Shown: piece by piece, positions 17,456 to 34,517 of the stretch
Layout of the letters: every line of letters begins with the position of its first letter
Position numbering within the stretch: position 1 is the stretch's first letter
NCBI RefSeq assembly: GCF_017873415.1
Contig: NZ_JAGGKD010000004.1
Span: 186,001 to 250,000, forward strand
From: Methanolobus bombayensis
GTDB lineage: Archaea > Halobacteriota > Methanosarcinia > Methanosarcinales > Methanosarcinaceae
Length of the DNA stretch: 64,000 nt
Direction: 5' to 3'
The notes under the pieces: model-generated
Told to the model about the DNA's origin: nothing
The model's database searches: none
The model's input: only the letters and a program-made list of their open reading frames with translations
Program-made: the position numbers and the translations under genes

Positions 17456-19270
17456 ATGAAAAAGGTCATTGAAAGCATTGATAATTTCAGTATCAGGACA
17501 AAATTGATACTTACGGTTGTCGGGATAATTCTGGTACTTGGTGTTCTGATGGCTTCATATCTTAATGTTGTTCAGACCAATATGATGAAAAGCGAATTGA
17601 ACGAAAAGGGGATTTCAATTACGCGTAATCTTGCAGAAAACAGTGTCAATCCGATTCTCACAGATAATCAGGTAAGACTTCAGTGGCTTGTTAAAACCAT
17701 TAAAGAAAGTGAGTCAGAGGTGGTTTATGTTTTTATAGTTGATGAACGTGGTGAAATACTGGTTCATACTTTCAGCGGAGGCTTTCCTGTGGACCTTAAA
17801 GGAATAAATCCTGCAGATTCAGGAACAGGTCAGCTTTTACTTGACACTGAAAAGGGTTACATCAGGGACATTTCATACCCAATACTCGATGGAAGTGCAG
17901 GAGAGGTTCATGTGGGTATGTCCCAGGAAAGTATAGGGACAACAGTGGATAAATTCACTCAATCTCTTCTCCTTTTTGTTCTCTTATTGCTGATTGTAGG
18001 TTCGAACGTGGCATATATGGCAGGATCTGTAGTTTCAAGTCCGATCCTTGAATTGAAGAACTCTGTAGAGATATTCGGAAAAGGTGACCTTGATCATAAG
18101 GCCAGGATCACTTCACAGAACGAAATAGGGCAGCTGGCTGATTCTTTCAATGACATGGCAGACCATATAGGTTACCTTATCAATGAAAAAGAAAAAGCTG
18201 CAAAAGAGGTACTTGAAACACGCAACTATCTTACTAAGATTGTTTCTGGTAGTCTTGATGGTATTGTTGTTATTGATGTTTCGGGCAAAGTAGAATTTGC
18301 AAATGAATCTTTCATGCATATAGCCGAGGCAGATATGGATGAGATAATTGGTCTGGATGCTCTTTCATTTGCTATTGATGATGAGGATATTGTTTCATAT
18401 TTCGAGTCACCGGACAAAGACTCGACTTTTATGAAGGAAATGAATTTCAGGGCTGGCAACGGCAATCTCAAATCGATCATCATGAGTATAGCTGTTGTTG
18501 AATATCGTAATGAGCTTAAGTATGTGGCAGTTACCAAGGATATTACCGAGATCAAAAAACTCGAGCAGATGAAACGCAATATTATCGCTAATATCTCACA
18601 TGAATTACGTACTCCTCTTAACATAATGAAGGGCTATGTGGAAATCGCTCTTGATGAAACAGACCTGGAAAAGAGGAATCTATTCCTTGAAAAGTCTTTA
18701 AAAGCTCTTGAAAGGCAGAACTGGATGATACAGGACCTTCTTGAAGTTGCCAGATGTGACGACGAACTTGAGAAAATGGACATGGTAAAAACAAGTATCA
18801 ATTGTGTTGTTGATATGGCGTTCAAGGCATTAAATGGTAAAGTCGATGTTTCAGGTCTGAATGTAAATATAAGACATGGTCAGGATAAATTTGTAAGAGC
18901 TGATCCTGAAAAACTGGCATATGCACTGACAAAGATCATAGACAATTCGCTGAAGTTCACTGAAAAAGGTGGCAGTGTTGAAATAGGTACTTTCCAGGAT
19001 GATGGCAAAGCCATTGTTTATGTAAAGGATACAGGCATTGGTATTCCAGACGATAAACTGGAACTTATATTTGACAGGTTTTATCAGGTTGATTCTTCTT
19101 CAACCCGCAAATATGGTGGTAACGGACTTGGCCTGAACATTGTAAAAACTATAGTTGACGGACATGAAGGGAAAATATGGGTCGAATCCGCAGTTGGTGA
19201 AGGTAGTACATTTTTCATTACTGTTCCTGAATTTGAAAACAGCAAAGAAACCCATGTTTGTCCTATATAG
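17456..19270 (+). CDS. Membrane sensor histidine kinase (sensor-HAMP-PAS-HisKA-HATPase)
   Basis: A 604-residue kinase. Membrane helices lie near residues 17-37 and 165-190 and frame an extracellular Cache-like sensor. A HAMP region follows (ENEIGQLADSFNDM-type motif near 220-235), then a PAS domain (about 255-370), the H-box ISHELRTPLN with phospho-acceptor His near residue 382, and the ATPase domain with N-box (DNSLKFTEKGG), G1 (KDTGIGIP), F-box and G2 (YGGNGLGLNI). GGTGG lies before the ATG. It follows the PhnD-like gene and precedes the AbrB-PhoU gene, so the three may form a phosphate-responsive signalling unit. No receiver-domain protein is encoded in the neighbourhood. Confidence 0.92.
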   Translation: MKKVIESIDNFSIRTKLILTVVGIILVLGVLMASYLNVVQTNMMKSELNEKGISITRNLAENSVNPILTDNQVRLQWLVKTIKESESEVVYVFIVDERGEILVHTFSGGFPVDLKGINPADSGTGQLLLDTEKGYIRDISYPILDGSAGEVHVGMSQESIGTTVDKFTQSLLLFVLLLLIVGSNVAYMAGSVVSSPILELKNSVEIFGKGDLDHKARITSQNEIGQLADSFNDMADHIGYLINEKEKAAKEVLETRNYLTKIVSGSLDGIVVIDVSGKVEFANESFMHIAEADMDEIIGLDALSFAIDDEDIVSYFESPDKDSTFMKEMNFRAGNGNLKSIIMSIAVVEYRNELKYVAVTKDITEIKKLEQMKRNIIANISHELRTPLNIMKGYVEIALDETDLEKRNLFLEKSLKALERQNWMIQDLLEVARCDDELEKMDMVKTSINCVVDMAFKALNGKVDVSGLNVNIRHGQDKFVRADPEKLAYALTKIIDNSLKFTEKGGSVEIGTFQDDGKAIVYVKDTGIGIPDDKLELIFDRFYQVDSSSTRKYGGNGLGLNIVKTIVDGHEGKIWVESAVGEGSTFFITVPEFENSKETHVCPI

Positions 19271-19359: not shown

Positions 19360-20322
19360 ATGGATACAAGAAAAGTACAGATCACAGGAAAATCCACTTA
19401 TGTTGTCACCCTTCCAAAGAAATGGGCGGTAAGCTCAAAACTGGAAGCAGGTTCGCATATTTCCATTTTCTATCAGGAAGATGGTTCTTTACTACTGAAA
19501 CCCCCAGGAGTTAAAAGTTCAAAGAAAAAGAAAAAGATAAAATTCAATAAGGAACTGGACCATTTAATAAGGGACTTAGTGGGTGTGTATATAATAGGTG
19601 ACCATCAGACAATAGAGATTATCGGGGAGAATATTTCTTCAGAAGCAACCCGGGAGATAAAGGATCTGTGTCATCGTCTTGTGGGTCTGGAAATGGTGGA
19701 AAACGATGAGAAGAAAATAGTTATCAAGAATTTCCTTGATACTGAGGATTTTACGATCAGTAAAGGGCTTAAACGCATGTCTTCACTTGTCTACCTGATG
19801 CTGGATGAGCTTGCAACTGCTTTTGAGGAAAACGACAAAGAATTATGCAAGCATGTGATAACCCGTGATGATGACCTTGACCGTATGTTCCTGCTTGTTT
19901 CCAAACAGCATGTTGAGCGTCTGAACCTCAAAAAGCCTTCAAAACATGATAAACTAAGTCTTGTGGAGTCTTTCTATTACCGGCTTGCAGCTAATGAAAT
20001 AGAACGTGTTGGCGACCACATATCCAAAATAGCATTGCATTTCTCTTATATTTCGCTGCCTCAGGATGTTCTTGAATCGCTTGTTGATCTGTGCAGGGAA
20101 TGCCAGTCTATCTTCATGGACAGCACTGAGGCTCTGCGGGAATCAAATAGCGATCTTGCAAATGATGTGCTTGGAAGGGAAGATCAGTTCAATAAGAAAC
20201 TCATCAGTGCTGCACAGTTGCCAACCGATGAATCCATAGAACTTATAATTGACAGTTTCAGCAGGATAAAGGATTATGCATCAAATATTGCAGAGTCTGC
20301 GATTGATCTATCACAATTATAG
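19360..20322 (+). CDS. AbrB-domain PhoU-family regulator (copy 1)
   Basis: About 320 residues. The first 45 are a SpoVT/AbrB DNA-binding swapped-hairpin (RKVQITGKSTYVVTLPKKW), followed by a Lys-rich linker KSSKKKKKIKF and two PhoU three-helix repeats (about residues 130-225 and 225-320) with ERVGDHISKIA, the classical PhoU metal-site motif. The fusion is typical of archaea and suggests a transcription factor that uses a PhoU fold to sense the phosphate or transporter state. ATG at 19360 is chosen because it gives the same N-terminus as copy 2 at 33099; GTG at 19351 is an alternative. The adjacent kinase and Pst genes support phosphate regulation. Confidence 0.9.
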   Translation: MDTRKVQITGKSTYVVTLPKKWAVSSKLEAGSHISIFYQEDGSLLLKPPGVKSSKKKKKIKFNKELDHLIRDLVGVYIIGDHQTIEIIGENISSEATREIKDLCHRLVGLEMVENDEKKIVIKNFLDTEDFTISKGLKRMSSLVYLMLDELATAFEENDKELCKHVITRDDDLDRMFLLVSKQHVERLNLKKPSKHDKLSLVESFYYRLAANEIERVGDHISKIALHFSYISLPQDVLESLVDLCRECQSIFMDSTEALRESNSDLANDVLGREDQFNKKLISAAQLPTDESIELIIDSFSRIKDYASNIAESAIDLSQL

Positions 20323-20710
20323 GCTCATCCCTCTTTTTCTCTGCGTGGGAGTAATAATTGATTATTCCCTGACATTCTATTTTGCCGGCAGCATTGAAAG
20401 GATACTGGATTATGAGTTCAGCCCGACACTGGTCTTTGCAGTAGAGCATAATATAGTTCTGCCTTATCTTGGTTTGACTGTTATTTTCTATTATTTCATG
20501 GGATATACCATATTGAAATTCCTTGAAGATGAGGAGATCTACCCTATAGGTGTTTTTATAATCCTTCTTATGAGTCTCACGCATGTTCTTGGTGGCCTGT
20601 CATGGTATGTGCTTAATGAGGCATATTCAAATATGATCTTCATGCTTTCCATGACCTCTATAATTATTGCCATATCGGTATTCGGATATGAAATCTTCAA
20701 AAGAGAATAA
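20276..20710 (+). CDS. Small four-helix membrane protein, DUF5658-like
   Basis: About 144 residues with four hydrophobic helices. The first helix carries an Asp followed by Leu-Thr (IIDYSLTFYFAG), and a Glu-His lies between the first and second helices, as in DUF5658 proteins. The frame overlaps the end of the AbrB-PhoU gene by 47 bp, with AAAGGA before its ATG; a later TTG at 20303 would remove half of the overlap. A second protein of the same type lies beside the second AbrB-PhoU gene (34122-34517), so the pairing is recurrent. Function unknown; possibly a membrane partner of the regulator. Confidence 0.7.
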   Translation: MHQILQSLRLIYHNYRLIPLFLCVGVIIDYSLTFYFAGSIERILDYEFSPTLVFAVEHNIVLPYLGLTVIFYYFMGYTILKFLEDEEIYPIGVFIILLMSLTHVLGGLSWYVLNEAYSNMIFMLSMTSIIIAISVFGYEIFKRE

Positions 20711-21053: not shown

Positions 21054-21069
21054 TAGCGGAGTGGAGTTT

Positions 21070-23115
21070 GTGAGAAAAACGGAAATAAACATACTCTGTC
21101 TGTTGTGTCTAACGGCATTACTGCTGTTCTCTTCACAACTACCTCTGGCTTCTGCAGGTATGTTATGCCAGTGTAATGACCTTGATACATGTATTGAGTG
21201 GGTGGATGATGGCAGCGTTAGTGTCAAGTGGGGTCAGATCGAGACTGTTGAGATAAATGGTGAGTATTACACATTTCGGGCTGATGACTTTGATGAAGGT
21301 CTAGATGGTGCTGTTATTTCTGTCGAACGGGATGGAGTAGTTAGAAAGGAGTTTCTTTTCCTAACAGGTTCGTATGATCGAAGATGGCTTGAATGGGACA
21401 ATGAGGTCAAAGTAGAAATCGCTGATATTATACTTGATAGCTATAAAACCCCTTCAGCAAAACTTGATCTTTATCATCGTGGACGTCCTGAAATTGAAAT
21501 TGAATTCGAGGCAAGTGAAGAGACTATTCAGGATGTGGAAGTTTCATCTGAGCAATACGCTCCCGGGGAAGAGAAACAGATTGATGTAACAATTGAAAAT
21601 ACCGGCGATGCCTGGATCGAGAATGTTATCCTTAAGATAGATACTGGTGAAATGCGAGTACGTTCAAGGGGTGATTTCGAATACAGGGATGGTATCTTAA
21701 AGGAAAATCTGGGTTGTCTTGCAGTAGATGACAACATTAAGATGAATTTTACAGTTGTGGCGCCTGAGTGGGATGGTGTGACTTCACCTTATGATCTGGA
21801 TTATTACATTAATGCTACTGCCGAAGGTTATGATATAAAAGAAAATAGCTATGGGTTCAATGGCTCTCTGGAACTTGGTTGTACTGAACCTGACATTGAA
21901 GTTGTTATGGAATTAACTACAGATGAGTTCAATATGACTTCGTGGTATGTGAAAACCCTTGAGGTAAACACTTCCACTCATAGTTCAATCGATTATGAGA
22001 TAAGAGATGCGGAAGAATTCACATTCTTAAGGACTCGTATTTTCAATACCGGTCTTTATACCCTGAGTAACATTGATGTCGAGTTTCCTGAAATATCTGA
22101 AGATCTGTTTATAGCTGAAAGCTATGAATCAGGTGATTATTCTACAATGGAAGATAATGGTCAATATTACCTGGGTCAAAAACTTGTAGCTATTAAACCC
22201 GGTGACTATTCATTTGATACAGTAATTGTGAAAACTAATTTCTTTGGTGAGAATCTGTCATGGAAATCAGAAACAGAACGTCTGAAAGTTCATGGTCCTG
22301 ATATTGTTCTTGACAAAAAACTGACAAGATCTGATTCAGATTACATGGTTTCACTTGATATTTCCAATGATGGTGACCGCGCAGCCTGGATAAACCTGAC
22401 TGACACTATTCCTGATGAACTGAACTATGTGGAGGGTAGTTTGGAAAAGAGCCTGGAAGGAAGCGATCTGCCTCTAAGCGAGTGGGATCTTAGTACGACG
22501 GTGGTTGGTGGTACGCAAATTGTCTCTGTTGAAGGGGTACTGCTTCCTCCGGGCTCATCACTTTCCATGGCCTATGAGTTCTCTTCAGATGAATTACCTG
22601 ATCTGCCGGCTGCAGTTTGTGAGTTTAAGTCTATATGGAAGTACGAAGGTGAAGCTCAATCGTCCTATTATGTTGATGGTGCTGAGGTGAAACAGTACTG
22701 GAGTCCTATTGATGATGATTGGGTTGCTGAATCTGATGTAACAGTTAATACTGTTCCTGCAATACCTGTTAATGTTGAGGAAGGATCTGAAGTTGTGGAC
22801 CTTTCTGAAGAAGGTAGTGAAGAAGATCTTAATTCTATTGATGATGAAGGGGATACTTCTGATGTTGCTCTGGCACTAGAGCAAGAACCTTCAACTTCGT
22901 TTTTATCTAAGATACTTTCTCCTGTCAGCAGTATTTTTGAGAAAATTCAGCAATTTGTAGGTGATACATTCGGAAGCACTCTTGATGGTATCTCTTCTGC
23001 TTTTGGCATGGCCGAAAATGCTGCTGTAGATGCCGTAGAGAACTATCTTTATGCAGTTGTAATAGGAATCGCAATTGTTGTTTTCCTTGTAGTCTCGACT
23101 TTGATCTCCAAATAA
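21070..23115 (+). CDS. Large cell-surface protein with CARDB/DUF11-like repeats and C-terminal anchor
   Basis: About 681 residues. A signal peptide (LCLLCLTALLLFSSQLPLAS) opens the protein. The body is beta-rich with N-glycosylation sites and at least three Ig-like segments of the CARDB/DUF11 type (EKQIDVTIENTGDAWIENV; LRTRIFNTGLYTLSNIDVEF; YMVSLDISNDGDRAAWINLT). An acidic linker and a single membrane helix (about residues 655-678) end it. CQCNDLDTCIEW near the start suggests a disulfide. GTG at 21070 has GGAG at a sensible distance. It lies directly upstream of the pilin-type PstS and could be a surface stalk or docking protein for that assembly; this is inference from position. Confidence 0.8.
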   Translation: MRKTEINILCLLCLTALLLFSSQLPLASAGMLCQCNDLDTCIEWVDDGSVSVKWGQIETVEINGEYYTFRADDFDEGLDGAVISVERDGVVRKEFLFLTGSYDRRWLEWDNEVKVEIADIILDSYKTPSAKLDLYHRGRPEIEIEFEASEETIQDVEVSSEQYAPGEEKQIDVTIENTGDAWIENVILKIDTGEMRVRSRGDFEYRDGILKENLGCLAVDDNIKMNFTVVAPEWDGVTSPYDLDYYINATAEGYDIKENSYGFNGSLELGCTEPDIEVVMELTTDEFNMTSWYVKTLEVNTSTHSSIDYEIRDAEEFTFLRTRIFNTGLYTLSNIDVEFPEISEDLFIAESYESGDYSTMEDNGQYYLGQKLVAIKPGDYSFDTVIVKTNFFGENLSWKSETERLKVHGPDIVLDKKLTRSDSDYMVSLDISNDGDRAAWINLTDTIPDELNYVEGSLEKSLEGSDLPLSEWDLSTTVVGGTQIVSVEGVLLPPGSSLSMAYEFSSDELPDLPAAVCEFKSIWKYEGEAQSSYYVDGAEVKQYWSPIDDDWVAESDVTVNTVPAIPVNVEEGSEVVDLSEEGSEEDLNSIDDEGDTSDVALALEQEPSTSFLSKILSPVSSIFEKIQQFVGDTFGSTLDGISSAFGMAENAAVDAVENYLYAVVIGIAIVVFLVVSTLISK

Positions 23116-23471
23116 TTGATTTTGAATCTTTTTCTCTGTAAATATCATTTGAGTTATATGTACAATACTATTATTGTGTATTTATTACCATAATGTGTAC
23201 ATGATATGCAGATGATATGTTCATTTCATAATTAGACATTGTTTATTTATTCTTTCTTATACTAAAATATGTATAAGTTCGCATGTTTTATTTAAGCAAA
23301 AATTCATTGTTGTATATGCACTAGTATATAGAGATATTGTAATTCTATATGGTTTATTGGTCTATATACATGATTTGTATAAGTATTATATATCCACATG
23401 CCAATTAGGTGCCAGAGCGATTAAAACCCGCTCACAAATAGGAACATAAAATAAATTGGTGTACGATAAAT
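23116..23471 (+). promoter_or_regulatory. Long A/T-rich control region of the pilin-PstS gene
   Basis: No coding frame is supported over 356 bp. Several TATA-like stretches occur; the closest good one is GTATTATATATCC (about 23382-23394), which would give a leader of roughly 50-60 bases before the ATG at 23472. Such a long upstream region before a highly codon-biased gene suggests multiple regulator sites, as expected for phosphate starvation control. No specific operator is identified. Confidence 0.5.
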
Positions 23472-24473
23472 ATGTTTAAGAAAATTTTCAACGACGAAGC
23501 TGGTGTTTCACCTATCGTTGCAACCCTCGTTTTAGTAGTGGTCGCAATCGCAGGCGCAGCAGCTGTAGGTACAATTTTAGGATCATTCTCAGGTGACGTT
23601 TCCGAACAGGCAAGTGCAGGCGACGCAGCAGGTTCCGCTTCAATGGAACTTGTAATTGCAGGTAGCTCAACAGTACAGCCAGTATCTGAACTTCTCGCAG
23701 AAGCATACATGGACAAAAACCCAGGTGTCAAGGTAACAGTACAGGGCGGTGGCTCAGGTGCAGGTATCACAGGCGCAAAGATGGGATACGTTGACATCGG
23801 TGCAGCATCCAAGGATGTAGACACAGTAAACGACTACCCTGAACTCCAGAAATTCACAATCGGTGGCAGTGGTGTAGTAGTCATTGTCAACGACAACTCT
23901 GGTGGTCTTACTGGTGCAGTAGTCACAGCTGCAAACCTTTCAGACATATACACAGCTGCTAACGGGGACGGTACAGCAGGTCTTACTGTTACAGGCGGAT
24001 ACTTGACAGAAAGTGCAGCAGCAACAAACTACACAATCTTCGACAGAGCTGACAAGAGCGGTACCGAAGAAACCTTCGCAAAATTCATCACAGGTGGTGC
24101 CGAAAAGTCCATTGACGCAATCGCTTCCGGTGTAGATGGTGGAGAAGGTAACCAGGGTGTACTTGAAAAGGTACAGGACACTCCTGACTCACTCGGATTT
24201 GTAGACTATGGATTTGCAGACGGTGCTTCCGGTGTAACAATCCTCAACCTTGAACATGATGGAACATCATATGATGTCAACGGTGACGGTGACACAATCA
24301 TCCTCGAGACTCTCCAGGGCACTCAGGACTACCCTCTTAAGAGACCTCTCAACTACCTTACCAACGGAAACCCAAGTTCACTGCAGAAATCATTCATTGA
24401 CTTCGCACTGTCCCCAGGTTCCAAGGACATCTACCACGAAACTGGATACTACGCAGCAGTAGAATTCATGTAA
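23472..24473 (+). CDS. PstS-type phosphate-binding protein with type IV pilin N-terminus
   Basis: A 333-residue fusion of an archaeal pilin signal and a phosphate-binding domain. Residues 1-11 (MFKKIFNDEAG) are a class III signal; cleavage before VSPIVATLVL would expose the pilin helix (about 12-37) seen in the archaeal pilin N-terminal family. A short Ser/Ala/Asp linker leads to the PstS fold from residue 57: IAGSSTVQPVSELLAEAY, QGGGSGAGITGA, DKSGTEETFAKF and DGGEGNQGV are the phosphate-contact loops. Codons are strongly biased (GCA, GGT, AAC, GTA), unlike pstC and pstA, so expression is probably very high. A terminator after it and permease genes pstC and pstA behind it fit a binding protein made in excess. 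Confidence 0.9.
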   Translation: MFKKIFNDEAGVSPIVATLVLVVVAIAGAAAVGTILGSFSGDVSEQASAGDAAGSASMELVIAGSSTVQPVSELLAEAYMDKNPGVKVTVQGGGSGAGITGAKMGYVDIGAASKDVDTVNDYPELQKFTIGGSGVVVIVNDNSGGLTGAVVTAANLSDIYTAANGDGTAGLTVTGGYLTESAAATNYTIFDRADKSGTEETFAKFITGGAEKSIDAIASGVDGGEGNQGVLEKVQDTPDSLGFVDYGFADGASGVTILNLEHDGTSYDVNGDGDTIILETLQGTQDYPLKRPLNYLTNGNPSSLQKSFIDFALSPGSKDIYHETGYYAAVEFM

Positions 24474-24487
24474 ATTTCAAACAACTC

Positions 24488-24527
24488 GGTCTGCACCTGA
24501 AATAACAGGTACAGACCTTTTTTTTTT
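24488..24527 (+). terminator. Attenuating terminator between pilin-PstS and pstC
   Basis: GGTCTG and CAGACC pair around a loop that itself can fold (CACCTG / CAGGTA), followed directly by a run of ten T. It probably stops most transcripts after the binding-protein gene, leaving read-through for the permeases. Confidence 0.75.
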
Positions 24528-24553
24528 AAAACGTTTAAGTGATGGAATAGAAG

Positions 24554-25468
24554 ATGACGGATTATAGTAAAATTCAATTGAAGCTTCCGCATTTGTTCTT
24601 TTTTACCTGTGCAAGTGCAACAGCGTTAATAGCTTTGTTCTTTGTGGGATTTTTGGTCTATACTGCCCTTCCTGTCTTTCAAAGTCAGGGAATAATCAAT
24701 TTCATTACTGGCACTGAATGGAATTATAGCAAAGAGGTATATGGCATAGGTACTTTTATCTATGGCACTGCACTGGTAACGATAGTCACTCTTTTTATTG
24801 CAGTTCCACTTAGTTTGTTCACAGCGATCTTTCTTGCAGAATATGCTTCGGAAAATGTAGCAAGAAAAGTTCGACCGATGATAGAATTACTTGTAGGTAT
24901 CCCATCGGTCATATATGGTATATTCGGACTTTACGTACTTGAAAATATATATCAGGATTATGTAAATCATTTTCTCAGTTCCACACTTGGTTTTCTTCCC
25001 CTTTTTGAAAATGTAAATCCAAATACTGGTAGTGGTGTACTGCTTGCTTCCACTGTTCTTTCAATAATGATCCTGCCCACGGTTACCGCAATATCTGAGG
25101 ACTCACTACGATCTGTCTCCCGTCACTATAGAGAAGCATCTTTTGCCATGGGTGCAACACATTGGGAAACCATCCGAAGAGTAGTTCTCCCGGTTGCTTC
25201 AAAAGGCATACTGGCAGCCATCACTCTTGGGACCATGCGCGCTATGGGTGAGACCATGGCAATTGTCATGCTACTGGGCACCAGTCAGAGAATGCCCTCT
25301 TCTTTGCTGGAAACCGGGTATGCAATGACTTCAAAGATATTGACTGATATTGGATTCTATGTTGCCGATGAAGGGCCCCGAAGTGCGCTTTTTGGTATAG
25401 CGGTTGTCCTGTTTGCAATTGAAATGGTATTTGTTGGTATCGCAAGAAGCCTTGGAGGTAGAAAATGA
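24554..25468 (+). CDS. pstC: Phosphate ABC transporter permease PstC
   Basis: A 304-residue permease with six membrane helices. The first extracellular loop contains TGTEWNY, typical of PstC, and the cytoplasmic EAA loop reads YREASFAMGATHWETIRRVVLP (about residues 195-216). GETMAIVMLLG near 235 is also conserved. It overlaps pstA by four bases (ATGA), so translation is coupled. With PstA it should form the inner-membrane channel for the pilin-type PstS. Length and topology match the family. Confidence 0.95.
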   Translation: MTDYSKIQLKLPHLFFFTCASATALIALFFVGFLVYTALPVFQSQGIINFITGTEWNYSKEVYGIGTFIYGTALVTIVTLFIAVPLSLFTAIFLAEYASENVARKVRPMIELLVGIPSVIYGIFGLYVLENIYQDYVNHFLSSTLGFLPLFENVNPNTGSGVLLASTVLSIMILPTVTAISEDSLRSVSRHYREASFAMGATHWETIRRVVLPVASKGILAAITLGTMRAMGETMAIVMLLGTSQRMPSSLLETGYAMTSKILTDIGFYVADEGPRSALFGIAVVLFAIEMVFVGIARSLGGRK

Positions 25469-26400
25469 GCTTCAAGTTAACGGAATGCATGATGTCGAAA
25501 AAAAAATTCAACTCCAGAAATGTGACATGTATGATATTTGAAGGAATATCCTATGTTGCAGCAACAATTACAGTACTTATTCTGATTTTGATAATTGGCA
25601 AAATAGCCATCGAGGCCATTCCAAGCCTGACGCCTTATTTCCTGCTAACTCCTGAATCAAAAACAAAGGGTTTTGGTGGCGGTATCGCAAATGCTGTTGT
25701 GGGAACTTTTTTAATTGCAACAATTTCGACAATGCTTGCTACACCTTTTGCTGTGGGCACTGCGATATACCTGAAAAAATATTCAAAAGATGGGTTTTTG
25801 GTAAGATCTTTCAGTTTTATGATAGATGTATTGGCAGGCACTCCTTCGATAGTTCTGGGTATTTTCGGACTTATGTTCCTCGTATTTTACACCGGTTTTT
25901 TTACAGGTGGTTTTTCCCTTATGACTGGTTCTATTGCTTTATCTATTTTAATACTACCAGTTATAGAGCGAGCTGCAGAAGAAGCATTGGATACAGTTCC
26001 TAGTGATATTGAAGAGGCAAGCTACGCACTTGGAGCTAATAAATGGGAAACAATAAGCAAAGTAACAATACCTTATGCACTATCCGGTATTATTACGGGC
26101 ATTATTCTCAGTGCGGGCAGAGCAGCAGGTGAATCCGCTGTCGTTATACTTACTGCAGGATATAGTCAGTTCTTACCAGAGTTTAAAGTTGCTTCAAGTG
26201 AAAAATTAGTATTTGGCATAAAAGTCTATCCTTTCCAGGATTTAGTAGGGACATTGCCTATAAACATATACCATGCTTATCAATTCCCTAATCTGGTTTC
26301 TCCATCCGAAGGTTTTGCTGCAGCTTTTGTGCTTATTGTAATTGTCATGGTAATAAATGTTGTTACAAGACTGATTGTTTGGAGGCACAGAATTGGTTAA
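25465..26400 (+). CDS. pstA: Phosphate ABC transporter permease PstA
   Basis: A 311-residue permease with six membrane helices and the EAA loop IEEASYALGANKWETISKV (about residues 190-208), followed by GRAAGESAVVILTAG. FGGGIANAVVGTFLIA before it is a PstA hallmark. Translation is coupled to pstC. The ATPase gene pstB, normally next, is absent: a terminator at 26458 follows and the next gene encodes a pilus-type ATPase. PstB must be elsewhere in the genome, or the permease is energised in another way. Confidence 0.94.
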   Translation: MSFKLTECMMSKKKFNSRNVTCMIFEGISYVAATITVLILILIIGKIAIEAIPSLTPYFLLTPESKTKGFGGGIANAVVGTFLIATISTMLATPFAVGTAIYLKKYSKDGFLVRSFSFMIDVLAGTPSIVLGIFGLMFLVFYTGFFTGGFSLMTGSIALSILILPVIERAAEEALDTVPSDIEEASYALGANKWETISKVTIPYALSGIITGIILSAGRAAGESAVVILTAGYSQFLPEFKVASSEKLVFGIKVYPFQDLVGTLPINIYHAYQFPNLVSPSEGFAAAFVLIVIVMVINVVTRLIVWRHRIG

Positions 26401-26457
26401 ACTTCCAGGTTGTAGTCTGAACCGATAATTAACATAAATCTGAAACTACATAAGGAG

Positions 26458-26491
26458 GGAGTTCGCTGTTAGTGAACTCCATTTTTTTATT
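26458..26491 (+). terminator. Terminator closing the pstCA unit
   Basis: A 7-bp stem GGAGTTC / GAACTCC with a 9-base loop, followed by ATTTTTTTATT, starts 58 bp after the pstA stop. It separates the Pst genes from the pilus-type assembly genes. Confidence 0.75.
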
Positions 26492-26546
26492 GTACTTCCA
26501 CAAATAAAAACCAAAAACCTTACTCACATAGCCGGTGTGCACATAA

Positions 26547-28832
26547 ATGAACATATCTGCAAGAACCTTGCTCTATACTTCACGTCCATCTATATATTTC
26601 CTTGAGAATAAGTATATGTCTGTGTATTCTGCTAGCTACAGTCAAATGGTTGGTACGAACACTGAAGCTGATTTTGAGTATAATGTTCCCCCTCAGGAAG
26701 GAAATGTTCCGGAATCTGCTGAAAACTTACTGGATGAACGGATTGGAATTCAGGAAATGCCTGCTACGGTGATTTCCGATGGGGATAAGAAAAAGAAGAA
26801 GGGAATACTTTCTGGTATAAGAAAAAAGAAAAAACCTGATAATGGCATTTCTGAACAGGAACATGACCATAACAAAAAAGCAAAAACAAAAAGATTCAGT
26901 TTAAGAAAGAAAATGAACAACTTCTCAGAGGAAACAGATTTTAATGAGGATGTTTCCCCTCAGGAAGGAATTGTTCCAAAACCTGCTGAAAACTTGCCGG
27001 ATGAAAACATTGACATGCAGGAAATGCCTGCTACGGTGATTTCCGATGGGGATAAGAAAAAGAAGAAGGGAATACTTTCTGGTATAAGAAAAAAGAAAAA
27101 ACCTGATAATGGCATTTCTGAGCAGGAACATAACCACAACAAAAAAACAAAAAGATTCAGTTTTAGAAAGAAAAAGAACGACCTCTTAGAGGAAACAGAC
27201 CTTAATGAGGCTGTTTCTATAAATGGGCAGGAAGAGGAGGTTGTGAATGATTCATCTATTTCTTTGATTCTTAAAAAGATTGAAAAAATAATAACCCCTG
27301 CTCCCGAAACTATCGAAGAGGCAGATTTCACTGTTGGCGAACTCTCAGTTCCTGCTCCCGGAGTTCCTCAAAAGGAAGTTAACATAACCTATGAAGTAAC
27401 TCCCGGAACTCAGTATGTTCATATCGAGTTTGACGGAGAGTCTCTTCAATACACATGCCTTGAACCTCCTCTAAGTGAATCCGAAGAGGAAGCACTTTTT
27501 ATCATCAAGAACGCTTTTGACAAAATGGCCCACTCTGAGATCCTTCTGGTAGAAGAGGAAGATCGTGTTGAGGCTTTGAGAGATAGGTTTGACCTTATCG
27601 TGGACATTTATCGTCTGAAACTCAGTGAAACCCAGAAAGACAAATTCTTCTATTATCTTCATAAAAAGTACATGGGTTTTGACAGGATGGATCTCCTGAT
27701 GAAAGACCCATATATAGAGGATATTACCTGTAACGGTCCTTATACTCCACTTTATGTAAACCACAGGGTTTACGGTTCAGTTGCAACGGATGTTATCTAT
27801 GAAGAGATCGAACTCAACAATTTTGTCATGAGGATGGCACAGGCAGCAGGCAGACATATTTCCGTACTTGAGCCTATCAGGGATGCAACTCTGGTTGATG
27901 GTAGCCGTGCAAACCTTACACTTGGAAAAGAGGTCACTAAAAGAGGTTCCACATTCACCATAAGGCGTTTCAGATCCAATCCGGTCTCATGTATAGACCT
28001 TATGAACTACAAGACCTATGATTCTATGGTTCTTGCATACTTCTGGCTTATGATAGAGTATAAAAGATCAGTTCTTGCAGCCGGAGGAACAGCATCAGGA
28101 AAAACTACAACCTTAAACGCTCTTGGTGCTTTCATCCCACCGGAATACAAAATTGTATCCATTGAAGATACTGCTGAAATGAACCTCATGCATCCGAACT
28201 GGACTCAATCCATCACAAGAGCTGGTTTTGGTGGCGGCGAAAGTGGAAAATCTGCAGGTGACATCGAACTTTTCGACCTGCTGAAAGCTGCTTTGAGACA
28301 AAGACCCGAATATATAGTAGTTGGTGAGGTTCGTGGTGCTGAAGCAGGTACGCTTTTCCAGGCTATTTCTGTAGGTCACCCTTGTATGGGAACTATCCAT
28401 GCAGGTTCAATTCATGAACTTCTCTCGAGGGTCGAGTCTGAGCCAATGAACGTGCCAAGGAATCTTTTTGCCAGTGTGGATATGGTCATCTTCAATTCCA
28501 TGATCAAAGTTGGAGAACATTTCCTCAGACGCGCACTCAGGATTGTGGAGATTGTGGAGCTGGATTCCGAACGTGGAGACTTGATCACCAATCCTGTGTT
28601 CAAATGGAACCCTGTTACTGATGAATACGAATACAGTGGTAGCAGTGCCATGTTTGATGCCATCAATGATGAATTTGGTATAGATCAGATGGAACTTGTC
28701 AAGGAAATGGGTATGAGGGCAAAGTATCTTGAATCCCTTGCTAATGGCGGTATAACTGAATATGAGGAAGTTGCCAGAGCTATCAGGAGGTATTCAAGAG
28801 AAAAAGATGAAATGGCGGAGATGGATCATTAA
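26547..28832 (+). CDS. Type II/IV secretion-type assembly ATPase (GspE/TadA/ArlI-like)
   Basis: A 761-residue hexameric ATPase that powers pilin insertion. The N-terminal 230 residues are charged, disordered-looking and contain a tandem duplication (see the repeat entry). The conserved core runs from about residue 260: PYIEDITCNGP, the Walker A GGTASGKTT with Lys at about 519, IEDTAEMNLMHPNW, then QRPEYIVVGEVRGAEAGTLF (Walker B) and TIHAGSIHELLSRVES (His box). This is the archaeal TadA/ArlI branch. Overlap of its stop with the next ATG shows coupling to the two membrane-platform genes. It probably assembles the pilin-type PstS and the pilin-like protein at 31968. The start codon is uncertain (26547 or 26616). 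Confidence 0.92.
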   Translation: MNISARTLLYTSRPSIYFLENKYMSVYSASYSQMVGTNTEADFEYNVPPQEGNVPESAENLLDERIGIQEMPATVISDGDKKKKKGILSGIRKKKKPDNGISEQEHDHNKKAKTKRFSLRKKMNNFSEETDFNEDVSPQEGIVPKPAENLPDENIDMQEMPATVISDGDKKKKKGILSGIRKKKKPDNGISEQEHNHNKKTKRFSFRKKKNDLLEETDLNEAVSINGQEEEVVNDSSISLILKKIEKIITPAPETIEEADFTVGELSVPAPGVPQKEVNITYEVTPGTQYVHIEFDGESLQYTCLEPPLSESEEEALFIIKNAFDKMAHSEILLVEEEDRVEALRDRFDLIVDIYRLKLSETQKDKFFYYLHKKYMGFDRMDLLMKDPYIEDITCNGPYTPLYVNHRVYGSVATDVIYEEIELNNFVMRMAQAAGRHISVLEPIRDATLVDGSRANLTLGKEVTKRGSTFTIRRFRSNPVSCIDLMNYKTYDSMVLAYFWLMIEYKRSVLAAGGTASGKTTTLNALGAFIPPEYKIVSIEDTAEMNLMHPNWTQSITRAGFGGGESGKSAGDIELFDLLKAALRQRPEYIVVGEVRGAEAGTLFQAISVGHPCMGTIHAGSIHELLSRVESEPMNVPRNLFASVDMVIFNSMIKVGEHFLRRALRIVEIVELDSERGDLITNPVFKWNPVTDEYEYSGSSAMFDAINDEFGIDQMELVKEMGMRAKYLESLANGGITEYEEVARAIRRYSREKDEMAEMDH
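26691..27218 (+). repeat. 267-bp in-frame tandem duplication inside the assembly ATPase gene
   Basis: Copy 1 is 26691-26957 and copy 2 is 26958-27218 (six bases shorter). A central stretch of more than 100 bases, coding from QEMPATVISDG to PDNGISEQEH, is almost or fully identical, so the duplication is recent. Each unit codes for an acidic segment followed by two Lys-rich clusters (DKKKKKG, RKKKK). Confidence 0.9.
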
Positions 28833-29749
28833 TGGTCAAAAACCAGGATGTTGATGTCCATCAGGCTTTCAATGATGGTACGACCAACAAGTATGTTGAG
28901 AAGTATAAAATGTTCTGCTATGTATTTGGTAAACACATAGATAAAAAACCCCAGGATGATATTGCTAAATCCCTTTACCAGGCCGACATGGTATTAACTC
29001 CAGGAATGTTCATGTCGCTGGCTCTTGTTACTGCAGCTATTGCTTCTGGAATTATATTTGTATTGTCGGTATTGCTTTTCCAAAACTCATCATCCCCACT
29101 TGTCTACATATCCGTGCTGACATTTCTCACATTCGGCCTGACAGTAAGTGGTTTTCCTTTCATGCTTTACAATAAGGTCTCAAACAAGAACATGAACATA
29201 GAACAGGAACTCCCATTCACATTAGGATACATGACCATACTTGCAAGCTCAGGTTCTTCACCTATGGATGTTATCAGGAAAGTTGCAATTGAGGATTATG
29301 GTGACGTTTCAGTTGAATTTGGTAAGGTAATGTACCGCGTGGATGTACTGGGTGAGGACGGTGTAAGTGCCATGAATCATCTTATACGGAACACGTCCTC
29401 AGAATCGCTAAGAGCTATATGCATTGATCTGGCCAATGCAATGCAGTCCGGTGGGGGCTTACGTACCTATCTTGAAATGAAATCACATGAACTTATGGAC
29501 ATGAGGCGAAAGATGCAACAGGAGTTCGTGGATTCTCTTGGAGTGTACGGTGAAGGTTATCTAAGTGGTGTAGTGATGAGTGTTGTACTTGTTGTCCTGA
29601 TGATTGTAGTCACAAGTGCTCTTGGAATTGATCTTGGTCCTTTTACAGCCAAACAGATGTTCCAGTTCTTTGTTTACTTCATGTTACCTTTTATTAACAT
29701 TATTTTTCTGCTTTTACTCTGGATGAAATATTCAAGGAGCACTCTATGA
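28832..29749 (+). CDS. T2SSF/TadC-type membrane platform protein 1
   Basis: A 305-residue protein of the type II secretion F family that forms the membrane base on which pilins are assembled. Hydrophobic pairs lie near residues 60-115, and again near 245-300; the cytoplasmic T2SSF helical domain between them contains LPFTLGYMTILASSGSSPMD and MRRKMQQEFVDSLGVYGEGY. It begins one base inside the ATPase stop and overlaps the next gene by four bases. Together with the second, longer platform protein it gives a two-component platform, as in archaeal pili and Tad systems. Confidence 0.88.
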   Translation: MVKNQDVDVHQAFNDGTTNKYVEKYKMFCYVFGKHIDKKPQDDIAKSLYQADMVLTPGMFMSLALVTAAIASGIIFVLSVLLFQNSSSPLVYISVLTFLTFGLTVSGFPFMLYNKVSNKNMNIEQELPFTLGYMTILASSGSSPMDVIRKVAIEDYGDVSVEFGKVMYRVDVLGEDGVSAMNHLIRNTSSESLRAICIDLANAMQSGGGLRTYLEMKSHELMDMRRKMQQEFVDSLGVYGEGYLSGVVMSVVLVVLMIVVTSALGIDLGPFTAKQMFQFFVYFMLPFINIIFLLLLWMKYSRSTL

Positions 29750-31104
29750 ATATTGAAAAATATCGTTTGCAGATAGAACGCTATATTCAGATACTAACGT
29801 TACGTTATGATGTAAAACGTGAGTATCTGACGTTGGGTATACCTGTATTTATTGCATTCATGATACTGCTTACAGCGGTTCTCACAGGCCATTCATTTGT
29901 CACTGATGAAGCAGCGGCAGGTGTGGCTGTAAGTGATGAAGATGCTGCAAGAAAAGCTGCATATGAGGCCCTGGTGGCCGAGATGGAAGCTGCAGAAGCA
30001 GCAGAAAGGGGTGAGGTGATTCCTGCAGAAAAAGAGGAGGTTGAACCGGAACCTGATGAAGAACAACCAAAAGATGATCTGGATCACATAATGGTCTTTG
30101 CTATACTGGTAGCTATAATCCCTTATTCTCTAGATTCTTTCCTTGAAAAGAAAAAATTGCAAAAAAGAGAGGTAGCCTTCAGTGAGTTCCTTTACAAGCT
30201 ATCAGAACTGATGAGGGGAGGTATTGACCCGGTAAAGGGATTCATCAACCTTTCAAAGACCAATCTTGGTGCTATCAGCAGTCATGCACAGGATGCAGCT
30301 TCTTCAATGGTGCTGGGTAGATCATTCGATGAATCCATGCATAAAATGTCAGAATCCATGAAAAGTCGTCTTGTGGCAAGATATATTGATGTAGTTGTTC
30401 AGGCTGCTTATACGGGTGGAAATGTTGCAGACCTTCTCTTTCGAACCTCTGAGGACATGAGGTCTGTTATAGCAATTCAGAGAGAAAAGGAAGCAAATCT
30501 GAAACAGTACATTGTTATATTTTACCTTGCACAGGGTATCATTATAATGCTTACATATATCCTTTCAACCTCTCTATTGCCTCTTATTCAAGGTGTTGGT
30601 ATGGAAATGCTTGGCGGTGCAGGTCTTTCTGATATAGATTTCGAGCGTGGCTTTTTCCATATGATAATACTGAATGCCCTGTTTGGTGGTCTTATTGTGG
30701 GATTGATCACAGAAGGTGAGATGAAACATGGCTTCAAACATTCTGCAATATTGATAGCCTTGAGCTATGTTGCATGTGTTACACTTCTGTTACCGGCAGG
30801 TGCAGGCGGTTCTTACATGATAAATGTAATTTCAGGTGATGGTCAGGAAGTAATGGGTGGTATTCCATTACAGGATCCAATTGTATTCAATGTTACTGAT
30901 ATGGATGGTAATCCTGCTGCAAATACATTCGTGAAATTATCAATAAATCCTTCTGGAACAATAACAAGTTCCATGACGGAAGATGATGGCACCATGGCAG
31001 TGACGCCAATCCCTGGTTCAGAAGATGGTACATATATTGTCACTGCAACTGCAGGTGAATCAAAAGGAACAGCTACAATAATAGTTAAAGGATTTGATGA
31101 TTAA
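29746..31104 (+). CDS. T2SSF/TadC-type membrane platform protein 2 with extracellular Ig-like tail
   Basis: A 452-residue T2SSF protein. After an N-terminal helix (about 30-48) there is an acidic, Ala/Glu-rich insertion (about 60-105), then helices and the T2SSF domain (FLYKLSELMRGGIDPVKGF to RTSEDMRSVIAIQREKE). Further helices lie near 250-350. The last 90 residues, after a membrane helix, form a beta domain of the bacterial-Ig/carboxypeptidase-regulatory type (PIVFNVTDMDGNPAANTFVKLS ... TYIVTATAGES), which should face outside. That tail is not part of usual TadC proteins and could contact the filament or the cell wall. Confidence 0.85.
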   Translation: MNIEKYRLQIERYIQILTLRYDVKREYLTLGIPVFIAFMILLTAVLTGHSFVTDEAAAGVAVSDEDAARKAAYEALVAEMEAAEAAERGEVIPAEKEEVEPEPDEEQPKDDLDHIMVFAILVAIIPYSLDSFLEKKKLQKREVAFSEFLYKLSELMRGGIDPVKGFINLSKTNLGAISSHAQDAASSMVLGRSFDESMHKMSESMKSRLVARYIDVVVQAAYTGGNVADLLFRTSEDMRSVIAIQREKEANLKQYIVIFYLAQGIIIMLTYILSTSLLPLIQGVGMEMLGGAGLSDIDFERGFFHMIILNALFGGLIVGLITEGEMKHGFKHSAILIALSYVACVTLLLPAGAGGSYMINVISGDGQEVMGGIPLQDPIVFNVTDMDGNPAANTFVKLSINPSGTITSSMTEDDGTMAVTPIPGSEDGTYIVTATAGESKGTATIIVKGFDD

Positions 31105-31125
31105 GCACTTTCTTTGGAAGTGCTT
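31103..31125 (+). terminator. Hairpin overlapping the end of the assembly operon
   Basis: AAGCACTT and AAGTGCTT pair around a 7-base loop, starting within the stop codon of the platform gene. No T-run follows, so termination strength is uncertain. It lies between this operon and the convergent gene at 31168. Confidence 0.45.
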
Positions 31126-31167
31126 GTCCATCCTAAAAGGATTTTAAGTACAAATAAATGTAAAAGA

Positions 31168-31863
31168 TTAGCCAACCCTTTCTCTTGTATCCATTGTAAT
31201 TCCCTGACTTGTGACGTTATATGCTATCATCTTGTTCAGAGGGATACTTCCTTTCATCTTCGGGATATTGATAAAACGATTGATTTTGCCACCGGCATAC
31301 TCGGTCTTGAACTGGATGACACCATCAACCATGGATCTTATTATTTTCTCCGCTCTATCCGGAAGAATGCCGATATCTGCCGAGAGCAGAAATGTTATAT
31401 TTTCTTCTCTGCTGATATTTGCCAGAGCTTCGATAGTCTCAGAGATGACCTCTATCTCCTCATGGATGAAAAGTGAGGAGAACATGTCTATTATACAGAC
31501 ATCAGCATCTGTTATGTTGTGCAAAGGACCAGCATCCTTTCCATAGAGGCGACTGGTCAGCTTATGTCTTCTGTAACACATGTCAAGTAAGGATACAGGA
31601 TTTGAAAAATTACCGATGATGTTCAGTTCTTTAGGATGGTCCTTTATACCGAATTTGTTTAGTTCTTCTATTATGTCCTTTTCGGAATTCCTTGTGGAAA
31701 TATAGTGAACCTTCTTTCCGAGTTTCAGTGCATCGGAACTGATCTTGCGGAAGAAGACGCTTTTCACATCTCCAATGTCTTCTTCAATCAATAGTACCAC
31801 ATTGGAAGGTACGTTTTTTAAACCGAAGCTAGTCAGCACCATCAAATCACTAAAAGGAATCAT
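31168..31863 (-). CDS. ArlH/KaiC-like RecA-fold protein with degenerate Walker A
   Basis: A 231-residue single RecA-fold domain. The N-terminus aligns with KaiC/ArlH (VLTSFGLKNVPSNVVLLIEE) but the Walker A position reads EEDIGDVKS, with Lys kept and one Gly lost. The Walker B-like strand DVCIIDMFSSL follows near residue 125, and NITFLLSADIG after it. In the archaellum, ArlH is a stalk protein that binds ArlI and ArlJ, and nucleotide binding by it matters more than hydrolysis. Its place between the assembly genes and the pilin-like gene suggests a similar structural role here. It is divergent from 31968 with a shared control region. Confidence 0.7.
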   Translation of the reverse strand: MIPFSDLMVLTSFGLKNVPSNVVLLIEEDIGDVKSVFFRKISSDALKLGKKVHYISTRNSEKDIIEELNKFGIKDHPKELNIIGNFSNPVSLLDMCYRRHKLTSRLYGKDAGPLHNITDADVCIIDMFSSLFIHEEIEVISETIEALANISREENITFLLSADIGILPDRAEKIIRSMVDGVIQFKTEYAGGKINRFINIPKMKGSIPLNKMIAYNVTSQGITMDTRERVG

Positions 31864-31933
31864 TGTTTAAATCATTTTGGAATAAAATCGCTCAATCTAT
31901 AGAATATTGAGGGCTATATATATTATAGAAATA

Positions 31934-31945
31934 AAGTATATAATC
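31934..31945 (+). promoter_or_regulatory. TATA box of the pilin-like gene
   Basis: AAGTATATAATC is centred about 27 bases upstream of the ATG at 31968. The spacing predicts transcription starting at or next to that ATG, that is, a leaderless or nearly leaderless mRNA, and favours 31968 over the ATG at 31950. Confidence 0.55.
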
Positions 31946-31967
31946 GCTAATGCACTTCTCAACAGGG

Positions 31968-33074
31968 ATGGCTGGCAACGATACAATATCATTCATACGA
32001 AATGAACGTGGGGTCACTGTTGTGTTTGGAACCCTGTTACTGATACTTATTACGATAATCGCTGCCACAAGTGTTGCTTTTATCATATCCACTACGGAGA
32101 AACAGGCTATGGATCTTGAAAGTCATAAGGCAGCTGTTGAGAACGAGAAACTCAAAATAGTTTCCATTGATCCAGTTGGGGATGGTTCAAACTGGGAATC
32201 CATTGACCTGAAAATTCTTAATTTAAACACACAGGATTCATACATTTCAGCAATAAGGATCAATGACGGTTATTTCCGTTATTACCGCGCCTATGAAGCT
32301 GATATTTCAGGTGATTTTGACACTTATAATGACTACCCTGCAGTTTATAATGCAAATCACAAGTTAAAGATTCCTGCCACTAAAAGCAAAAACGTCCATT
32401 TGAATTTTTCTGATATAGATATTCAGGGAACTGAAACTATTGACACTTCTGCATGGACAAACAACAGTCAGGATTTTGCATATTCTCTTGAAAAACATCC
32501 CCAGGATGCTTATGGTGATTATCCGTATAATTTTAATCTTACCTATATAAACGGAACAAATTGTATAAAAAGCGGTAACGTAACAATTGATGACGAAAAC
32601 CGTCAGATCACTTTTATCGGCACGGATTCAGGTGGACATCTCATTAATACTACAAAGTACAATATTACTTATTCACTGAATTTCCCACCATATCCCGTCA
32701 ATAAGCCTTTTGAAAATGACCCTGTCAGGGTTGAACTTATTACTTCATACATTAACGTTTTCAGAGAAGTTTTCACTCCTCCAATGCCATTGGCAGATGT
32801 TCAGTTCAGGGTGGAGTATCTACCCAGTGGAAATGGAAGTATCACCGATGAGTACCTTATACTTGATGCTTCGGATTCCATAGACTCAGATGGTTTCATT
32901 ACAGGTTACAAATGGACTGTATGGCAAGGTTCTGACCAGTATAATCTTTCAGGAATGGTTGTAAGGTACGATGAAACATCACTTTCTAACCTGACTATTG
33001 ACCTTAAGCTCACAGACGATGATGGTATGACCTCCAGACTAAGTGAGGTTTCAGGTAACATAACAATTCTGTAA
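31968..33074 (+). CDS. Pilin-like surface protein with C-terminal PKD domain
   Basis: About 368 residues. The N-terminus has a charged leader ending FIRNERG, then the hydrophobic pilin helix VTVVFGTLLLILITIIAATS, as in archaeal class III signals; the mature protein would start at or near Val15. A long beta-rich middle with N-glycosylation sites follows. The last 85 residues resemble a PKD domain: ILDASDSIDSDGFITGYKWTV and LTDDDGMTSR. Such a protein could be a minor pilin or filament adaptor working with the assembly ATPase and platform genes on the left. The start choice rests on the TATA spacing. Confidence 0.8.
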   Translation: MAGNDTISFIRNERGVTVVFGTLLLILITIIAATSVAFIISTTEKQAMDLESHKAAVENEKLKIVSIDPVGDGSNWESIDLKILNLNTQDSYISAIRINDGYFRYYRAYEADISGDFDTYNDYPAVYNANHKLKIPATKSKNVHLNFSDIDIQGTETIDTSAWTNNSQDFAYSLEKHPQDAYGDYPYNFNLTYINGTNCIKSGNVTIDDENRQITFIGTDSGGHLINTTKYNITYSLNFPPYPVNKPFENDPVRVELITSYINVFREVFTPPMPLADVQFRVEYLPSGNGSITDEYLILDASDSIDSDGFITGYKWTVWQGSDQYNLSGMVVRYDETSLSNLTIDLKLTDDDGMTSRLSEVSGNITIL

Positions 33075-33098: not shown

Positions 33099-34154
33099 AT
33101 ATCAGATAAAAGAAAGATCCAGCTAACAGGTGGTTCTACCTATATTGTTTCCCTTCCCATTGGATGGGTAAGGGAAGGCGGACTTACTGCAGGTGACACA
33201 GTACTTCTCACAGTAAGACCTGACAGGTCGCTGCTTATAACTTCTGATCAGAGCAAACTGAAAAAGAATGTTCGTTCAAAGATCGATATGATAGCATCTG
33301 AGGACCAGGAAGAGAATTTCAGGTTACTTGTTGCTAATTATCTTGTTGGTTATGATATCATTAGGATTATTTCTCCGGGAGGATTTTCTGCCGCAGAACG
33401 CAAATATCTGAAGGAATCTGCCCGAAGACGTCTTATTGGTATTGAAATTGTAGAAGAGACCAGGACAGAGATCACACTTCAGAATCTGTTGAACTTTCAG
33501 GACATTTCTCTTGAGAAGTCGCTTCAGAGTATGTTCCGTATCATTTTCTCCATGATGGAGGATTCCGTTGTGGCATTAAGGGAGTCTGATGTTGAACTTG
33601 CAAAGGATATTATCCAGAGGGACAATGATGTTGATAAGTTCTATCTTTTAAGTGTCAGGCAGATAAAGGCCGCACTGGATGATTCCACACTTGCGGGTAA
33701 GATCGGTATAAAGGATTCCAAGGATTGCCTCGGTTATCGTCTTATCATTAAACTCATGGAACGTATTGGTGATCATGTGCAGGGAATCTCTCACAGTGTG
33801 ATCCAGATGGATGGTGAAAAAGGGAACAATGATGATATTATTGAAATGGGCCTGCTTTCCCAGAAACTGTTCCAGGAATCATTCAGATCAGTAGTTGACA
33901 TAGATACCGATCTTGCCAATCATGTGATGAGAACCTCTAAACTTGCAATTTCACTTGGAAACAAGATAATCCAGCAGTCGGAGCATAGTGATAATGCATA
34001 TTGTCTTCCAAGAGAACGACAGAGAAAAATAATAGAGAGTTTCCAGCGTATATCCGAATACAGTGCGGATATAGCTGAAATGGTCATCAATATGAAGGCA
34101 ACTCATATCAAACAATCATTTTCAGAGGAAGCCCAGGCTCTCGAACAGGCTTGA
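33099..34154 (+). CDS. AbrB-domain PhoU-family regulator (copy 2), AUA start
   Basis: About 351 residues: an AbrB hairpin (SDKRKIQLTGGSTYIVSLP) and two PhoU repeats, with LMERIGDHVQGIS as the first metal-site motif. The frame has no ATG, GTG or TTG before the AbrB domain; it opens at 33081 after a stop. AAAGGAAGG at 33084-33092 is 6 bases before ATA at 33099, and alignment to copy 1 places the start exactly there. I therefore take AUA as initiator (AUU at 33093 is the alternative). It begins 24 bp after the pilin-like gene, so it is probably co-transcribed. Likely a transcriptional regulator tied to phosphate, as copy 1. Confidence 0.85.
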   Translation: MSDKRKIQLTGGSTYIVSLPIGWVREGGLTAGDTVLLTVRPDRSLLITSDQSKLKKNVRSKIDMIASEDQEENFRLLVANYLVGYDIIRIISPGGFSAAERKYLKESARRRLIGIEIVEETRTEITLQNLLNFQDISLEKSLQSMFRIIFSMMEDSVVALRESDVELAKDIIQRDNDVDKFYLLSVRQIKAALDDSTLAGKIGIKDSKDCLGYRLIIKLMERIGDHVQGISHSVIQMDGEKGNNDDIIEMGLLSQKLFQESFRSVVDIDTDLANHVMRTSKLAISLGNKIIQQSEHSDNAYCLPRERQRKIIESFQRISEYSADIAEMVINMKATHIKQSFSEEAQALEQA

Positions 34155-34517
34155 TCTGAAGGTGATAACCATCAGATTGTTGATCACAAGCACAAGTCCG
34201 AAAATGCTGACTCCTGTCTTTGAAATATTCCAGAGTTTCCTGGCATATGAGTGAACTGATGCTTTGATGGAACAGTAGTTCCAGTAGACTATCAGTAATA
34301 TCAGCATTTTGACAACCAGCAGGGACCATAGTCCATAAGTTGCCATTATACTTGAAAGAAATCCATTTTCCTCAAATCCGTATCCGTTGCTCAGTGCATG
34401 GAATGTTGTAAGGAAATCTCCGACTATATAAAGTAATATGATAAATCTGGCCTCGTAAAGGAATTCGTAAATCGCTTCTGTGTTGAACAACCCTTTCTTA
34501 ACATTTTTTGAGAGCAT
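34122..34517 (-). CDS. DUF5658-like small membrane protein
   Basis: A 131-residue protein with four membrane helices. VGDFLTTFHALSNGYGFEENGF (Asp, Thr-Thr, Gly, Glu-Glu-Asn) in the first half is the DUF5658 signature. Its 3' end overlaps the convergent AbrB-PhoU gene by 33 bp. The similar protein beside the other AbrB-PhoU gene (20276-20710) is in the same rather than opposite orientation. Function unknown. Confidence 0.78.
   Translation of the reverse strand: MLSKNVKKGLFNTEAIYEFLYEARFIILLYIVGDFLTTFHALSNGYGFEENGFLSSIMATYGLWSLLVVKMLILLIVYWNYCSIKASVHSYARKLWNISKTGVSIFGLVLVINNLMVITFRSSLFESLGFL

Follow-up and report, generated by a model that had tools for sequence, protein, structure and literature searches.

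A candidate phosphate bindosome in Methanolobus: a pilin-type phosphate-binding protein co-inherited with a type IV pilus-like assembly machine

A 64,000-nucleotide stretch of the Methanolobus bombayensis genome (hereafter the window; contig NZ_JAGGKD010000004.1, positions 186,001 to 250,000) carries a gene cluster in which a phosphate-binding protein with a type IV pilin N-terminus lies beside phosphate permease genes and the genes of a pilus-like assembly machine. The genome measures 3.1 Mb and the contig that holds the window 318 kb; all positions given below are those of the window. The core of the cluster begins with PstS-pilin (23472..24473, plus strand), in which a type IV pilin (class III) N-terminus is followed by a phosphate-binding domain at residues 58-333 (PBP_like_2, 5e-24; TIGR02136, 1e-35, below the curated cut-off). 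On the same strand lie the permeases PstC (24554..25468; TIGR02138, 302 bits, over the cut-off; EAA coupling loop EASFAMGATHWETIRRVVLP) and PstA (25465..26400; TIGR00974, 263 bits, over the cut-off; EAA coupling loop present), and then an assembly ATPase of the T2SSE/GspE2 family with a charged N-terminal extension (26547..28832; PF00437, 2.5e-31; Walker A GGTASGKTT at residue 513), for which the closest solved structures are 2OAP and FlaI. Two T2SSF platform proteins come next, F1 (28832..29749, plus strand; PF00482, 2e-11) and F2 (29746..31104, plus strand; PF00482, 1e-14), the latter with a C-terminal Ig-like domain (Big_1, 8e-6), together with a KaiC/ArlH-like protein on the minus strand (31168..31863; PF06745, 4e-11) and a second pilin-like protein of 374 amino acids on the plus strand (31950..33074; PF07790 (Pilin_N), 5e-4, below the cut-off). 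Open reading frame (ORF) listing and Pfam and TIGRFAM profiles agree that all of these genes, which an earlier sequence-only reading of the window had named, are open and in place. That reading had confined the unit to the span from PstS-pilin to the second pilin-like protein; its genes stand, and its boundaries had to be moved, as the conserved unit spans 19.3 to 34.2 kb, starting upstream with an AbrB-PhoU protein, a small membrane protein and a surface protein and ending with a second PhoU gene.

Residues 1-41 of PstS start MFKKIFNDEAG/VSPIVATLVLVVVAIAGAAAVGTILGSF, with a helix at 12-41 and a predicted mature start at V12. A search of the PDB with this N-terminus matched 8FJ5, a Pilin_N protein with 20 chains (E = 6e-4), and more weakly 8REY and 3J1R, the latter the core of an archaeal adhesion filament; because the chains of 8REY and 3J1R begin exactly at VSP, we infer that PstS is cut between G11 and V12. 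The 30-residue pilin helix is kept across genera in an alignment of 26 members, and this conservation, together with the match to solved filament pilins, argues that the class III (pilin-type) signal on this substrate-binding protein is not there by chance. Identity among 16 Methanolobus-type sequences is 98% over residues 12-41 and 50% over the binding domain; for control helices of the same cassette it is 74% (C-terminal anchor of the surface protein), 46% (first helix of PstC), and 85% (second pilin-like protein). In the codons of the pilin helix, fourfold-degenerate third positions show an average agreement of only 66% (range 39-100), and the helix is therefore held by selection at the protein level; the same figure rules out recent gene conversion or copying as the source of its identity. 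No strong second copy of the PstS N-terminus was recovered when the bombayensis genome was searched with it.

The binding domain was modelled at high confidence, with most blocks above 90 in predicted local distance difference test score (pLDDT), and it resembles PstS structures by both fold and sequence. Residues S65, S113, R192, S196, and G197 are invariant in the 26 members and coincide, in alignment, with the phosphate-site positions of solved PstS.

We searched the gene order across a sample of 112 genomes of the family, counting as members of the PstS-pilin clade those matches that begin at residue 1-5 with at least 46% identity, and as orthologs of the assembly ATPase a clade with 68-100% identity, all paralogs falling at or below 49%. 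The PstS-pilin clade was present in 23 genomes and the orthologous ATPase in 25, and every one of the 23 PstS carriers encoded both (Fisher p = 6e-22 for co-occurrence, phylogeny ignored). In the two genomes with the ATPase only (L060 and L061) the contigs end inside the cassette; assembly genes travelling without a pilin-type PstS, which would have spoken against the proposal of the sequence-only reading, were thus not seen in the family. Where both genes lie on the same contig they are at most about 4.3 kb apart, and the second pilin-like protein is present in nearly all loci. Co-occurrence and synteny thus tie a dedicated assembly ATPase and platform protein to the substrate-binding protein. 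Cassettes with a pilin-type PstS were also found in other families (among them ANME-1, Methanoculleus, Methanofollis, Methanolinea, and Methanoregula); these loci combine it with PstC, PstA, and the ATPase, and in most of them also with the platform proteins, the ArlH-like protein, the small membrane protein, and a second pilin-like protein. The genes often follow a different order there. Co-occurrence and this recurrence in other gene orders rule out chance neighbours. Among the close relatives of PstS that bear a lipobox or plain anchor, 14 loci had room for the orthologous ATPase and none had it nearby; one apparent non-pilin PstS beside the ATPase (L138) was counted as pilin-type, its ORF start having been set too far upstream.

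Comparison of Methanolobus-type cassettes suggested that cargo and assembly genes have had separate histories. The pairwise identities of PstS, PstC, and PstA inter-correlate (rho 0.57-0.80) and show rho values of -0.40 to 0.10 against the flanking genes, most of which correlate with one another. The cargo tree scatters five genomes that the assembly-gene tree unites in a 99% clade; the cargo data reject the assembly-gene clade (approximately unbiased test, p = 2e-56), and the assembly data reject two cargo clades that were chosen after the identities were seen (p = 7e-6 and 3e-9). For the single pair G045 and G062, exchange was not significant (p = 0.14). Together, the correlations and trees indicate that the binding domain, PstC, and PstA moved as one unit through a fixed assembly chassis. 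Because these parts were exchanged between cassettes and the assembly genes were not, PstS appears to be fitted to two partners, with one end suited to the assembly machine and the other to its permease. DNA identity falls just past the pilin helix and returns at the ATPase, and helix DNA identity tracks the assembly genes weakly (rho 0.38). A breakpoint exactly at the end of the helix is suggested by these identity profiles and is unproven, as selection on the helix alone yields the same drop.

The remaining machine parts bear their own marks. The P-loop of the ArlH/KaiC-like protein is degenerate (EEDIGDVKS); because its glycines are lost in every member examined, this protein probably does not hydrolyse ATP. 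The second pilin-like protein has a long N-terminal helix (19-64 in the structure model), a beta domain, and a C-terminal PKD-like domain, and a fold search with it returned weak beta-sandwich and PKD matches and no pilin match. It is the only large pilin-like protein besides PstS in the cassette, and small pilins of the BasABC type are not found there. The unit contains no pstB; the single genome match over the curated cut-off for PstB (G000:C10:8231) belongs to an ordinary pst operon and lies on a different contig, and the loci of some relatives (L143, L148, and L149) lie near the pstB of an ordinary operon. The genome encodes one A24-type prepilin peptidase.

The nearest described counterpart is the bindosome assembly system (Bas) of Saccharolobus solfataricus, where pilin-type substrate-binding proteins depend on BasEF for uptake and loss of basEF impairs sugar uptake (PMC4187195, PMC2910488). 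FlaFind surveys predicted 33 class III substrate-binding proteins and reviewers guessed that bindosomes may be widespread (PMC4187195, PMC2910488), so the idea of a non-sugar bindosome is not new; a description of this phosphate system was not found in literature searches. Bas carries sugar cargo, three small pilins (BasABC), and one platform protein, with basABCEF arranged as two small operons, whereas the Methanolobus locus has phosphate cargo and two platform proteins, adds an ArlH-like protein, has a single large pilin with a PKD-like end, belongs to another lineage, and unites cargo, permease, and assembly genes in one cluster that lacks its own PstB. The resemblance of its ATPase and platform to BasE and BasF is functional only. 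The unit contains the hallmark of the archaeal type IV pilus superfamily, namely a T2SSE ATPase and a T2SSF platform with at least one pilin N-terminus. Euryarchaeal type IV pili (VirB11/TadC census, PMC4858521) are alike in having a GspE2/FlaI-type ATPase, two TadC-like proteins, a KaiC-family neighbour, and Pilin_N-like N-termini, but in the Methanolobus unit a phosphate-binding protein replaces the small major pilin; the words "phosphate" and "PstS" are absent from the main text of that census. With Pst transporters accompanied by PhoU the unit shares the PstS ligand residues, a PstC and a PstA that each pass the curated cut-off, and PhoU neighbours, but it has no PstB, and its PstS bears a pilin tail rather than a Sec or lipoprotein signal. 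With the archaellum (ArlI/ArlJ/ArlH) it shares a FlaI-related ATPase, platform proteins, and an ArlH-like protein; it differs in having no archaellin-like gene (ORF listing, a Pfam scan, and synteny of the unit revealed none), two platform proteins, a degenerate P-loop in the ArlH-like protein, and solute-transport genes inside the cluster.

Considering the domain content, pilin helix, phosphate-site residues, co-inheritance, and modular exchange described above, all read from sequence comparison, we regard it as probable (roughly 0.68) that the locus encodes a dedicated type IV pilus-like machine for making a phosphate-capturing assembly on the cell surface, a "bindosome" or PstS pilus. The sequence-only reading had proposed such a surface structure, and co-inheritance supports that interpretation; the structure on cells, with its cleavage, polymerisation, geometry, uptake, and regulation, is what we infer. 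PstS would be made as a prepilin, exported, and cut at G11/V12 by the cell's one archaeal prepilin peptidase. Its helix would next be packed by the ATPase and both platform proteins, giving an oligomer or a short filament at the S-layer in which the PKD-bearing pilin-like protein probably serves as a minor or anchoring subunit. The displayed phosphate-binding domains would load the locus's own PstC-PstA channel, which keeps its EAA loops and would have to borrow the only clear PstB of the cell, encoded elsewhere with the ordinary pst operon, and the flanking PhoU proteins could tie expression or activity to phosphate status. A stronger version, in which a true phosphate-capture filament has PstS as its main polymerising subunit, with helix and assembly genes fixed and the binding domain and its matched PstC and PstA swapped between lineages as one cassette, is one that we put forward tentatively, at somewhat less than even odds.

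Several observations weigh against a phosphate-capturing assembly. The locus encodes no PstB, and the hand-over of phosphate from a filament-bound binding protein to PstCA is a gap in the scheme that is common with the sugar bindosome. The TIGR02136 score of PstS falls below the curated cut-off, and affinity and exact ligand are therefore assumed. The N-terminal helix was modelled at low confidence (pLDDT below 50), and the filament is not a structural prediction here. Finally, two pilin-type loci (L137 and L156) have no ATPase within 10 kb, and in two genomes (L069 and L070) a second pilin-type PstS copy stands alone with PhoU.

Among the alternatives, the one that survives best is that PstS takes only a minor or passenger place among the pilins, decorating an ordinary adhesive pilus made of others, for instance as a means of sticking to phosphate minerals or of reporting phosphate. 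The near-constant second pilin-like protein and the other Pilin_N proteins encoded elsewhere in the genome would suit this arrangement, as would the ability of archaeal ATPase/platform pairs to work with different sets of pilins (PMC4858521). We nevertheless consider it unlikely, given that the only pilins common to the cassettes are PstS and one large PKD-type protein, and that PstS co-evolves with its own PstC and PstA, which would be needless for a pure adhesin. Retention in PstC and PstA of the EAA loop that docks an ATPase, and the closeness of three loci (L143, L148, and L149) to the pstB of an ordinary operon, speak against PstS, PstC, PstA, and PhoU forming a phosphate-sensing device, that is, a receptor without PstB that switches surface pilus assembly on or off and does not transport. 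Such a device would account for the missing pstB in a genome with one clear PstB, the PhoU genes at both sides, and the KaiC-like protein with its degenerate P-loop, but it leaves the pilin tail on PstS itself unexplained, and we judge it improbable. Although a pilin helix can remain in the membrane and some second pilin-type PstS copies lack assembly genes, a tail that is a mere membrane anchor, with phosphate and pilus genes as neighbours without a common function, is the least probable reading and is already strained by the data, since near-perfect co-occurrence and adjacency persist across several families despite changed gene order, ordinary-anchored relatives lack assembly genes beside them, and the helix is conserved far above the other anchors. 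An ordinary anchor on PstS was also the second condition that the sequence-only reading had set against its own proposal, and the last two of these findings weaken it.

The flanks of the unit complete its inventory. PhoU1 (19360..20322, plus strand; a GTG start is possible at 19330) combines a MazE/AbrB DNA-binding domain with two PhoU domains (Pfam PhoU, 4e-24; MazE, 1e-8) and adjoins the cassette in most Methanosarcinaceae loci. It is followed by TM144 (20276..20710, plus strand), a small multi-pass membrane protein of unassigned function. Because TM144 stays with the cassette in rearranged loci of distant families (L115-L118, L138, L141, L144, L145, and L148) despite having no Pfam match, it is likely an uncharacterised component of the machine. 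A large surface protein with a signal peptide and a C-terminal membrane anchor (21061..23115, plus strand; no Pfam match) is syntenic in most family loci, and the syntenic PhoU2 (33288..34154, plus strand; PF01895, 4e-20) closes the unit. Two small membrane proteins flank the unit, TM144 and another at 34122-34517. Further upstream, 15409-19270 encodes an ordinary PstS on the minus strand, a PhnD-like binding protein, and a sensor kinase with no permease, an arrangement that is syntenic in several Methanolobus genomes and possibly represents a phosphate or phosphonate sensing module.

The promoter and leader of PstS (23385..23471, plus strand), identified from an alignment of 17 loci, contain a TATA-like element (TTATATAT) and a small hairpin, GAGCG-N9-CGCTC, which is kept in all 17 with one compensatory change (GAGTG/CACTC). 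The hairpin of the window was rejected as a stable RNA, its stability being no greater than that of shuffles (z = -0.1). Unrelated hairpins occur at the same leader position in other genera (L048, L056, L057, and L059 were looked at), with z scores of -2.4, -4.0, and -5.2 and strong structures in L056 and L059; such leader hairpins possibly act as an mRNA-stabilising 5' stem.

Other observations concern PstS and PstA relatives. A second, divergent pilin-type PstS with its own PhoU and without its own permease or assembly genes lies inside the cassette in three genomes and alone in two (L043:3685-4758(-); L051:15188-16267(+); L064:6684-7805(+); L069:9787-10911(-); L070). In genomes of Methanomicrobiales type (L120-L125, PstS at about 9 kb in each), the lipobox or plain-anchor PstS relatives adjoin large sensor kinases of about 1050 amino acids, as if used as receptors. 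PstA of the Methanoregula type is 910-948 amino acids long (L117:12782-15514; L118:11193-14039), with a long C-terminal extension that is surface-exposed in appearance, and a PKD-repeat protein is encoded next to it; a PstA-ATPase fusion, guessed from the ORF sizes in these two loci, was ruled out, as the extension is of surface type and contains no ATPase.

To our knowledge, work on bindosomes has essentially been confined to a single crenarchaeon and to sugars. The cassette described here places a binding protein, a permease, and an assembly motor in one unit outside the Thermoproteota, in methanogens and ANME archaea, with phosphate, a nutrient that often limits growth, as the predicted cargo. 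It bears on whether substrate-binding proteins can serve as structural subunits in machines of the pilus type, and its modular exchange provides evolutionary evidence for one protein that answers to two partners, an assembly machine and a channel. If the proposed assembly is real, these cells would build a surface structure from phosphate-catching proteins.

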